Below are positions 28,545 through 31,062 of a DNA stretch of 34,040 bases, piece by piece. Both the position numbers and the translations under genes were made by a program. Position 1 is the first letter of the stretch; each line of letters opens with the position of its first letter. Origin of the DNA: Spirirestis rafaelensis WJT71-NPBG6 (lineage in GTDB: Bacteria > Cyanobacteriota > Cyanobacteriia > Cyanobacteriales > Nostocaceae); assembly GCA_019359015.1 (NCBI GenBank), contig JAHHID010000076.1:1-34040 (forward strand), written 5' to 3'. The notes below the pieces were generated by a model. That model had not been told where the DNA came from, made no database searches, and saw only the letters and a list, made by a program, of their open reading frames with translations.

Positions 28545-30620
28545 TCACAAATCCAAACCAGAGTCCGAACGCTTTGGTTGTTGTGGCTTCTGGTAACTTT
28601 GCTGTCGGGGTTGTTGCTTCTGTTGCGCTTTTATCTGCTTAGGATGAACTTGTTCGTTTAACTCCTCTTGGTAATCCAAAAATATCTGCACATCATCTTG
28701 TGTCAAATTCTTCCCTCTAGCTGGTTTGCTTGGATCAAGTGGAATTAAGGCTAATTCTTCACCACTTGTACGTTTTAGCTGAAAAATATCATTTTCCAGA
28801 ACCAGCTCATGCTTAGAACTTCTATACCGCTTGTGCTGACCCCGCAGATGCCAAAAGTTACGGACAATTGGTGCAATTGTTTCAGCATACTGCTGTTGCA
28901 GTTTTTCCGATTGGGGAGTGGTTGACTGTTGCTGTACTTTTAGTTCTTTAGCACTAATAGTTGACTTCTCTGGTACGGTTGGTTCTACTTTTTGATGAGA
29001 AGTTGGTTCTGATTCAACAGCAGTATCTGGTGTAGTTGAACTGCTGGAGTTGAGTATTTCTTGCATCTTACGAAAGGCTAGGAAAAAACCACCTTCTTGT
29101 TCTACTAATCGTTGAAATAATGGTTCTTGTTGTAGTTTAGTTAACCAGTCAGCACTATAATTCGGGATTGATTCCGTACTTATTTCTTCAGTTTCTCTTC
29201 TATCTTCTGCAACCGAATCTCGATACTGTTGCTGCGATTGTTCATCCGGTTTAGGACTTGGGGTGGTAGAATCTGTATCAGCATCCAAGCTGTTGCTCCT
29301 GATATTACTCCCATCATTGCTAGCAACCCCGCTAGCCCTCTGTAGGTGAATATTTGCTCTTGAAGCATTATCTTGAACGGGTACTTTTTCGGCAACAACT
29401 TCTCTAGTTTCTGAATTGCTGCGTTGGTTTTTTCTATTTCCTTTAGTTGGTTTAACTGGGAGGCTTGATTCCCCAATATTTGATTGCTGGTTGCTAATTG
29501 TTTCTCTAGATTCTGAATCGTTTCTGTCAGGTTGGTTATTAATTGGTTCGGAGTCGATAATTGATTCGATAATGCTTGCATTTCCTGTGATAAATTGGCT
29601 ATCTCCGATTTTATCAATACTTGTTGATTCTCTACCGACTGAACTTTCTCCACCCACTGTGTTAAGGATTGCGGCAATTGGTTCAATACTTGCAGTAATT
29701 CGTTTAATGCTTGCTGCGTCTGTAAGTCGTTTTCTTCTTCGCTTATTTGTTGCTCCCACTGTGGCTTGTTGTTGTCCTGATTCTCCATATACTACACCTA
29801 AATATTTTTGCAATCCTGGGAACGAATAACCCTTACCTATTTGATATCCAGCTATTTTTATCCCATTCATCTCATAGGCAATACCCAATATATTGTCCTG
29901 TTTATCCAACTTGGGATGGACGATTATATTCTTCTCTTTTAGTCGGCTAACTAGTTGAGTAAAGGTTGGTTTATCTACTGCGGCTTCATCAATTGCGTCT
30001 GCTATTAGTTGAACTAGAGGTGGTTTACCTGATGTATGTTTTAACTGTTTAATAGTTGGTGGTTTCCTAATCGTAGGAGTAACACTTGCTTCTATTCCTA
30101 TTTCTTGGAGCTTTTGGACAACTTTTTCACTACTGCAAGGTGTTGGCTCTAAACCAAATTCCTTTTCTAATTTGCGTGCTGCAACTTCGGCTTTCCTATA
30201 GTCCCACGAATCTGGAACAACAGTAGCATCCATCTTGATGCGACTGGCAATAATATGTATGTGTTCGTGTTCTCTATCAGTATGTCTGCCCATTACATAC
30301 TGACTAAAGTGCAACCCCTCACCCAAATATCCCATTTCTTCTAGAAAGCGTTGACCGACAGTGCTATATTGCAAATCATCTAAATGTTCGTGATATTCAC
30401 CATTAGCATGTTCGCTACTACGATGGGGAATAGATAATATTATATGGGCGCAAGCATTCTTAAATTCTGGGTTGGAGCGTTTTGCAAGTGAGAATTCTCG
30501 TGCTAGTTCGTTTGGTGTAGCACTATTCATGTTAGTGCCAATAATCGATGCACCCTCTTTCCCAAGTACATACTTGAGAGTGGGGAGAAAGTTACCGTGT
30601 TTAAAGATTTTGGGAATCAA
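28545..30620 (-). CDS. MOBP-type relaxase / mobilization nuclease
   Basis: This 691-aa relaxase nicks plasmid DNA at oriT and pilots the strand during mobilization. The nuclease domain is at about 1-270. The candidate catalytic tyrosine is Tyr17 in LKYVLG, and the HUH metal site is H113-T-D-R-E-H118-E-H120-I-H122, matching the HxDxxHxHxH pattern of VirD2/MobA-like relaxases. Residues about 278-481 are low-complexity (Ser, Asn, Thr, Glu rich) and are overlapped by a second gene in another frame. The C-terminus has a conserved-looking segment (about 480-650) and a Q/P-rich tail. The start is TTG at 30620: it yields the family-typical opening MIPKI, and an in-frame stop lies two codons upstream. 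It follows mobC by 34 bases. Confidence 0.9.
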   Translation of the reverse strand: MIPKIFKHGNFLPTLKYVLGKEGASIIGTNMNSATPNELAREFSLAKRSNPEFKNACAHIILSIPHRSSEHANGEYHEHLDDLQYSTVGQRFLEEMGYLGEGLHFSQYVMGRHTDREHEHIHIIASRIKMDATVVPDSWDYRKAEVAARKLEKEFGLEPTPCSSEKVVQKLQEIGIEASVTPTIRKPPTIKQLKHTSGKPPLVQLIADAIDEAAVDKPTFTQLVSRLKEKNIIVHPKLDKQDNILGIAYEMNGIKIAGYQIGKGYSFPGLQKYLGVVYGESGQQQATVGATNKRRRKRLTDAASIKRITASIEPIAAILNTVGGESSVGRESTSIDKIGDSQFITGNASIIESIIDSEPINNQPDRNDSESRETISNQQSNIGESSLPVKPTKGNRKNQRSNSETREVVAEKVPVQDNASRANIHLQRASGVASNDGSNIRSNSLDADTDSTTPSPKPDEQSQQQYRDSVAEDRRETEEISTESIPNYSADWLTKLQQEPLFQRLVEQEGGFFLAFRKMQEILNSSSSTTPDTAVESEPTSHQKVEPTVPEKSTISAKELKVQQQSTTPQSEKLQQQYAETIAPIVRNFWHLRGQHKRYRSSKHELVLENDIFQLKRTSGEELALIPLDPSKPARGKNLTQDDVQIFLDYQEELNEQVHPKQIKAQQKQQPRQQSYQKPQQPKRSDSGLDL
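29180..29788 (-). CDS. nested mobilization protein inside the relaxase gene (coiled coil plus membrane helix)
   Basis: This 202-aa frame lies wholly inside the relaxase gene, on the same strand but shifted by one base. It reads like a real protein. It has a long coiled coil (about 25-132, for example NLSQEMQALSNQLS and TNLTETIQNLEKQLA), a basic patch LPKKYPFK, one hydrophobic helix (about 151-173, GLAGLLAMMGVISGATAWML), and a short C-terminal amphipathic helix. AGGTG lies six bases before its ATG, a good ribosome site. The relaxase is low-complexity in just this stretch, as expected if the nested frame carries the constraint. In ColE1-type plasmids mbeB and mbeD are likewise nested in mbeA. 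Equivalence is inferred from layout, not sequence. It may tether the relaxosome to the membrane. Confidence 0.75.
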   Translation of the reverse strand: MENQDNNKPQWEQQISEEENDLQTQQALNELLQVLNQLPQSLTQWVEKVQSVENQQVLIKSEIANLSQEMQALSNQLSTPNQLITNLTETIQNLEKQLATSNQILGNQASQLNQLKEIEKTNAAIQKLEKLLPKKYPFKIMLQEQIFTYRGLAGLLAMMGVISGATAWMLIQILPPQVLNRMNNRSNSIEIRLQKIEEKLKK

Positions 30621-30654: not shown

Positions 30655-31062
30655 TTATAAAGCATCAGTTTCATCATCCACATCTATACTTAACAACTGC
30701 TGCGTAGTTGTCCACATATCCGAGTGCAGTTGTTCAAGTTGCTCTACAATATTGCCAATATCGTTATTGGATGATGCTACTGTTAAACAAAGTTTAAGTT
30801 GGCTGGCAATCAATTTTAGTTGTGCTAGTTGGTTGTAAAATTGCCACTGTTCTTTTAATAAGGGGGTGGTGATTTTTCGTCTTAATCCTGCACGACGCAG
30901 ATATTCAGATATCGACAGTTTGCTGCTAAAAGCATATTGTTTAATTTTTTCGCTTTCAAGTTGCGAAAAACTAACTGGATGACGAATGGTTCTTCTACTT
31001 GTACTAGTTTTGTCGGTTGTAGATAAAGCTTTCTTTTTCTTCTTCTGACTATCCGTTTGCAT
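30655..31062 (-). CDS. mobC: MobC-like relaxosome accessory protein
   Basis: This small basic protein (135 aa) resembles plasmid MobC, which binds oriT and helps the relaxase open the strands. The N-terminus is lysine-rich. A ribbon-helix-helix-like segment lies at about 26-62 (RHPVSFSQLESEKIKQYAFS, then SISEYLRRAGLRRK). A helical region at about 72-120 with the FYNQLAQLKLIASQLK pattern is typical of the MobC C-terminal half. It ends 34 bases before the relaxase start on the same strand, so the two form an operon. The ATG at 31062 has no strong ribosome site. A short palindrome TTGTGGTTACAA (31069-31080) sits just upstream and could be an autoregulatory operator. Confidence 0.75.
   Translation of the reverse strand: MQTDSQKKKKKALSTTDKTSTSRRTIRHPVSFSQLESEKIKQYAFSSKLSISEYLRRAGLRRKITTPLLKEQWQFYNQLAQLKLIASQLKLCLTVASSNNDIGNIVEQLEQLHSDMWTTTQQLLSIDVDDETDAL

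Follow-up and report, generated by a model that had tools for sequence, protein, structure and literature searches.

Two long open reading frames share 609 bases on the same strand of a contig from Spirirestis rafaelensis WJT71-NPBG6 (JAHHID010000076.1; the whole 34,040-nt stretch analysed is referred to as the window). The outer frame encodes a relaxase. Is the inner frame a gene in its own right, and what could its product do?

Layout of the locus

The outer gene combines a PF03432 nuclease domain with an intact HUH-type histidine motif, as expected of a MOBP relaxase. The inner open reading frame (ORF) lies wholly within it in the +1 frame, in agreement with a sequence-only reading that had proposed a complete second gene here. 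The features of the locus are the following:

28545–30620, minus strand: outer gene, MOBP-type relaxase of 691 aa, TTG start (PF03432, E 9e-24; motif HTDREHEHIHII)
30150–30572, minus strand: relaxase nuclease domain, residues 17–157, outside the overlap (Pfam)
28638–29039, minus strand: relaxase C-terminal region, residues 528–661 (similarity to other relaxases)
30655–31062, minus strand: NikA/MobC-like relaxosome accessory gene, upstream of the relaxase (PF21983, E 5e-11)
29180–29788, minus strand: nested gene, helical protein of 202 aa with one membrane segment, ATG start (ORF and coding tests)
29795–29799, minus strand: Shine-Dalgarno-like AGGTG, 6 bases before the inner ATG (sequence)
29276–29332, minus strand: predicted membrane segment, inner residues 153–171 (Kyte-Doolittle 1.78)
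29198–29236, minus strand: conserved tail, inner residues 185–197, family consensus GRVNNxEI(R/K)LxR(I/L)E (alignment)

The inner gene starts at relaxase codon 278, past the nuclease domain. The membrane helix and the ribosome site that the sequence-only reading had also claimed are both recovered, as the single hydrophobic segment and the AGGTG listed above. A single-sequence AlphaFold2 model of the inner protein shows helices almost throughout, at low confidence (mean pLDDT 60.8, pTM 0.25).

In the relaxase frame, S, T, N, Q, D, E, K and R make up 64% of the residues within the overlap, 43% before it and 58% after it. The entropy of the same frame is 3.50 bits in the overlap, a slight drop only from 3.73 bits before and 3.69 bits after. 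The relaxase had been described as low-complexity exactly there; it is indeed more polar in the overlap, but hardly less complex. The C-terminal region is 29–37% identical to those of the relaxases of G116, G135 and G170 (E 4e-15 to 1e-13), and it is also present in relaxases without the inner gene.

Three Pfam models detected no coupling protein or VirB4 in the window's own genome, the VirB4 model being positive in only one of 14 control genomes; the plasmid may therefore be mobilized by another element. Beside the mobilization genes, positions 133–26220 of this 34-kb contig hold NRPS/PKS-type biosynthetic genes together with MFS, HlyD, ABC and FtsX transport genes. Since they share a contig with the mobilization genes, the biosynthetic cluster may be mobilizable.

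Relatives of the inner protein in three relaxase classes

A tblastn search of 72,556 plasmid records with the inner protein found three: two Gloeothece citriformis plasmids, with the homologue inside a relaxase annotated as MobQ, and Leptolyngbya NIES-3755, with it inside another relaxase. Searches of the plasmids with other family members returned only the same three records again. The PLSDB gene tables of these records, which are stated to be incomplete, list only the relaxase at that place.

Across the order, a model built on the inner tail matched 17 of 388 genomes at E ≤ 1e-4, the window's included, in 19 places. We fetched 18 regions, namely 17 of these places (excluding the window and G036, which is L009) and one from G334 found with a full-length model. 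All 18 contain an inner-family ORF by HMM, nested in 12 and stand-alone in six, where stand-alone denotes the lack of an overlapping same-strand ORF of at least 130 aa. Together with the window, L002, L003, L004 and L009 this gives 17 nested loci, and the inner frame is +1 in all 17.

The hosts belong to different relaxase classes. The window, L004 and L009 are MOBP by PF03432. Nine of the 17 are MOBQ, five of them by PF03389 (L002, L149, L150, L153 and L156) and four by close similarity (L003, L151, L154 and L155); in L155, an interruption of the relaxase frame lies downstream of the inner gene. Among the MOBF hosts the TrwC domain (PF08751) scored in L166 alone, while L167 and L168, of which only helicase or C-terminal parts are present, are assigned by similarity. 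The hosts of L169 and L173 are cut at the contig end and carry no class assignment; by its C-terminal part, L169 clusters with the MOBF set. Aligned with hhalign, the N-domains of MOBP, MOBQ and MOBF hosts show no similarity to each other (probability ≤ 2.8%). According to a review, these HUH relaxase families are distantly related and share one fold (PMC12857230). In all three classes the inner family occupies the same site, after the relaxase N-part and before the C-terminal part, and the same frame.

Family members have a common layout of a long polar part, one hydrophobic segment and the tail, in which R185, N187 and E190 (window numbering) are invariant among 17 aligned sequences; the L009 protein stops early, within the tail. 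An NGNGK-type N-terminus just after the start is common to the MOBQ and MOBF members. A Shine-Dalgarno-like match of at least 4 bases precedes 11 of 16 inner starts (that of L173 being doubtful), compared with 177 of 847 background ATG/GTG codons, and is absent at five of the 16; this enrichment lends weak support, as the starts were chosen from the alignment and the members are related. In a tree of 23 inner proteins, where L169 and L173 carry the MOBQ label by script default, the only well-supported grouping near the window is that of the window and L009 (96/94). L004 has a second nested ORF of 164 aa (L004:2311–2805), which lies upstream of the inner gene, shares its frame and lacks a clear membrane segment; it is faintly like the inner tail (E 0.082).

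The stand-alone relatives are found on a chromosome-sized contig (L148) or next to non-mobilization genes. The basic role of the family may therefore be a different one. Two of them, L161 and L163, match DUF6753 (PF20538; E 3e-20 and 4e-16), a domain without a match in the nested proteins scanned with Pfam. In L161 the match (residues 3–144 of 179) ends before the conserved tail. Both DUF6753 proteins (L161:2165–2704 and L163:1039–1587) end in a similar membrane segment and tail, and each is preceded by an open frame with a ParA-like GGAGKS motif, recognized by eye; that of L161 has no Pfam match, and a topoisomerase frame comes next in this locus.

Codon-level selection in the overlap

Close pairs of nested loci were compared in alignments that followed the inner codons within the overlap and the relaxase codons in the flanks. 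In the Gloeothece pair (L002/L003), differences in the overlap number 7, 6 and 44 at inner positions 1, 2 and 3, and the inner protein changes by 8.4% compared with 25.0% for the relaxase frame. Upstream of the overlap, relaxase positions 1, 2 and 3 differ at 37, 34 and 89 sites. The same switch is seen in 13 of 13 pairs, with differences peaking at inner position 3 in the overlap and at relaxase position 3 in both flanks. Because pairs within a group share history, we tested one pair per group, comparing relaxase positions 1 and 3 within the overlap with those outside it. The p values were 3e-12, 6e-6, 9e-7 and 7e-7 for four groups, three of MOBQ and one of MOBF hosts. Pairs from MOBQ-B and MOBF differ by 14–28% in the inner protein and by 17–33% in the relaxase frame (for example 22.9% versus 27.5%), a difference so slight that the constraint on the inner protein is modest in these groups.

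For the window, no close relative was found for this test, and distant ones were used. Against six of them the inner frame shows p3 > p1 > p2 in 6/6 comparisons when aligned by the inner protein, an alignment that favours this pattern; aligned by the outer protein, L004 gives the same order and L149 a tie, and the other four do not show it. Measured against shuffles, the window's similarity to L002, L003, L004, L009 and L040 reaches z 9.9–20.1 in the inner frame and 1.5–5.4 in the outer frame. Across all comparisons inner proteins score z 6.4–20.1, excluding the close pair L002/L003 and L009 versus L040 (2.8), and relaxase frames −0.9 to 5.4, excluding L002/L003. In the overlap, the relaxase frame of MOBQ-A resembles that of MOBQ-B (98%) and somewhat that of MOBF (70%), which complicates the picture and could be an effect of inner conservation or of a segment that moved as a whole. 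Purifying selection on the second frame, as in an overprinted gene, is observed in relatives and for the window by distant comparison only.

One rival reading is that the amino-acid composition of the relaxase linker left this frame open by chance. In its favour, synonymous permutation of the window's relaxase leaves the +1 frame naturally more open than +2 (mean longest run 76 versus 46 codons), and long runs are not rare in two of the relatives: in 2000 permutations each, the observed length was reached 824 times for L004 and 474 times for L009. Against it, 5000 synonymous permutations for the window gave +1 runs of at most 200 codons and never the observed 202, 5000 shuffles of codon order did not reach 202 either, and the observed length was reached in none of the 2000 permutations for L002 or L003. 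In the real relaxase gene the +2 frame opens 31 codons at most. Related proteins are also encoded within outer genes of other classes and by genes that stand alone, and the codon phase switches in four pairs from four groups. On the permutations, the substitution pattern of the relatives and this switch, we reject the chance reading, which is scarcely credible; 29180–29788 is a real, conserved coding gene. The sequence-only reading had named a lack of independent protein matches and of codon-level constraint as what would speak against it; matches were found in plasmids, in genomes across the order and among stand-alone genes, and constraint on the inner frame is seen in the relatives. Neither of the two refuting tests proposed in that reading went against it.

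Sporadic distribution of the inner gene

Similarity searches yielded 96 relaxase ORFs in 127 loci, reduced to 81 by removal of 15 with identical C-ends; 58 of the 81 have at least 400 aa, four have fewer than 300 aa, and at least 15 come from Bacteroidota. A nested ORF of at least 140 aa is present in five of the 81, all of the inner family, of which L002, L003, L004 and L009/L013 entered the set via the inner protein; among loci brought in by relaxase similarity only the window has the inner gene, and G036 also appears in the relaxase search. The longest nested ORF in the remaining 76 has 104 aa. The inner gene is absent from the eight nearest relaxase loci (54–57% identity); two of these eight (L017 and L019) were removed as duplicates before the count, and neither shows a nested ORF. 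Since 76 of 81 relaxase ORFs lack it, the inner gene is no general trait of this relaxase lineage, and relaxases as a rule do not depend on it for their action. It is sporadic, gained or lost together with the linker.

Within the window's taxonomic family, seven of 217 genomes gave matches, of which only the window's own is clear. The six weak ones were not counted: L133 and L136 contain stops, and L131, L132, L134 and L135 are one kind of short protein scoring 18–26 bits with the tail model. The latter four have an N-terminal hydrophobic stretch and an (R/S)xNNLExxxNRxExRLNQIES pattern that recalls the inner tail, and they may be remotely linked to it. Also left uncounted were 27 further places from the full-length model (L041–L067) and three non-G036 loci (L010–L012), none of which has the tail by HMM. 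In the last phylum sample only the window matched among 259 genomes at E 1e-4, and no relative was found in viral contigs.

Another nested ORF is present in 10 of 10 flavobacterial relaxase loci (L022–L031; for example L031:4746–4949). It has 63–85 aa, looks unrelated to the inner family, lies in the +1 frame about 35 codons before the relaxase stop, and has an M(S/N)KxETV start region; it is MbeD-sized and without a membrane segment. In this overlap relaxase position 1 shows more differences than position 3 in 23 of 24 pairs above 60% identity, the exception having five changes in total, and outside it position 3 leads in 24 of 24. For L031/L030, relaxase positions 1, 2 and 3 differ at 22, 11 and 4 sites in the overlap and at 44, 40 and 114 outside.

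The C-terminal domain beside the inner gene

The region that follows the inner gene was modelled from the MOBQ and MOBF hosts, L169 and the MOBP hosts L004 and L009. This model covers 13 of the 17 nested hosts, partly by construction, and also finds relaxases without the inner gene (L092 and L097, E about 5e-10). Its match to the window is weak (E 0.0026), and L002, L003 and L173 are unmatched at E 0.05. A separate model built with the window included was not used, its match to the window carrying no weight. By hhalign, this region links MOBQ-A with MOBF (95%), MOBQ-B with MOBF (86%) and L004 with MOBQ-A and MOBQ-B (80–92%), and links the window to no group (≤ 0.9%). A zeta-toxin-like kinase (L039:2830–3810; PF06414, E 5e-12) has the relaxase-type C-terminal domain at its C-end (E 8e-7), where it is perhaps a transfer signal.

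A portable 3' cassette, consisting of the nested membrane-protein gene and the small C-terminal domain, might have been joined in cyanobacteria to MOBP, MOBQ and MOBF N-parts, which are distantly related at most; the nested gene, which also has its stand-alone relatives, would then predate its hosts' linkers and would have been inserted always in +1. We offer this tentatively and rate it somewhat below even odds. Given the links between C-terminal regions, the cassette is best supported for MOBQ, MOBF and L004, the window not being linked.

Comparison with known nested mobilization genes

Plasmids of the IncQ and ColE1 types are known to carry nested mobilization genes. IncQ MobB (IncQ1 record, L129 2749–3162) is nested in mobA in the +1 frame and has a membrane segment at residues 99–117 of 137; ColE1 MbeB is nested in mbeA, also in +1, with a membrane segment at 89–107 of 172. 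The inner protein resembles IncQ MobB (RSF1010/R1162) in its +1 nesting after the relaxase domain, its helical-looking N-part and a membrane segment near the C-end. The MOBQ host of MobB is shared by nine of the 17 nested loci, whereas the window's host is MOBP, and MobB lacks the GRVNNxEI(R/K)L tail. With ColE1 MbeB the inner protein shares a MOBP-type host, one membrane segment and +1 nesting, but the segment of MbeB is central. ColE1 has two successive nested ORFs, as does Leptolyngbya L004. The ColE1 mbeB/mbeD precedent cited in the sequence-only reading thus stands for the membrane segment and the +1 nesting of MbeB, while IncQ MobB is closer in layout.

These likenesses do not extend to sequence. 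The inner protein has no significant homology to MobB (hhalign 2.6%; hmmsearch 13 bits, confined to the helical part) or to MbeB (hhalign 1.2%), and since no sequence homology was detected we do not file it as MobB. MbeB_N (PF04837) and MbeD_MobD (PF04899) have no match in the proteins of the window, L002, L004 (two ORFs), L009 and L040, and the ColE1 controls matched. Without a Pfam match or significant hhalign similarity, membership in MobB, MbeB or MbeD was rejected.

The title of Parker and Meyer 2007 states that R1162 MobA transport signals require MobB. By record coordinates, mobB spans about MobA codons 250–387. Transport signals of R1162 MobA are placed at 204–323 and 322–387 in a published study (PMC10025392). 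In the open-access literature covered, no description of the nested gene in cyanobacteria was found.

Proposed function

We consider the inner gene best explained as a member of a coding, +1-nested family whose product is probably a membrane-anchored partner of the relaxase, working like IncQ MobB (probability about 0.75). The 609 bases serve two proteins. Read in the relaxase frame, they supply a polar stretch that links the nuclease domain to the C-terminal region. Read in +1, they specify a separate protein whose long helical part, presumably cytoplasmic, is followed by one membrane helix and a short conserved tail. The relaxase mRNA would be translated from the inner start as well, so that the inner protein would be made together with the relaxase. 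Its helical part may bind the relaxase or the relaxosome, and its membrane helix would keep the complex at the inner membrane, within reach of a coupling protein that another element provides and that could take it up. The inner protein may thus tether the relaxosome at the membrane. A role of this kind has been reported for IncQ MobB. The inner gene may have entered relaxase genes within an exchangeable 3' segment, with the relaxase frame reading through it as a tolerant linker.

The product could instead serve some other envelope function of the plasmid, such as entry exclusion or plasmid partition, with the relaxase gene as no more than its location. The ColE1 record calls MbeD a mobilization/exclusion protein, and the DUF6753 relatives in L161 and L163 follow the ParA-like frames, with the topoisomerase after that of L161; yet relaxase genes of three classes repeatedly act as hosts, which points to a relaxase-linked job and makes this alternative unlikely. 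Considerably less probable is +1 frameshifting from the relaxase, which would yield a membrane-tethered fusion with the relaxase nuclease. The constant +1 position of the nested frame would suit such a mechanism, but the start codons with Shine-Dalgarno-like sites, the N-terminus that MOBQ and MOBF members share just after the start, and the stand-alone relatives with their own starts argue against it.

Implications

What is new here is one nested gene family common to three relaxase classes, beside a C-terminal domain in 13 of 17 hosts. Such a gene may be missed by annotation, as the gene tables, themselves stated to be incomplete, give the relaxase only. Its recurrence in three classes, together with the switch in codon constraint, offers a way into the spread of overlapping genes by recombination between hosts. 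It also makes testable by which of its parts a relaxase reaches the cyanobacterial transfer machinery. If the cassette is true, it would be a common docking device that brings different relaxases to the same cyanobacterial transfer machinery, and the presence of the C-terminal domain on the zeta-toxin-like kinase would mark that domain as a secretion signal.
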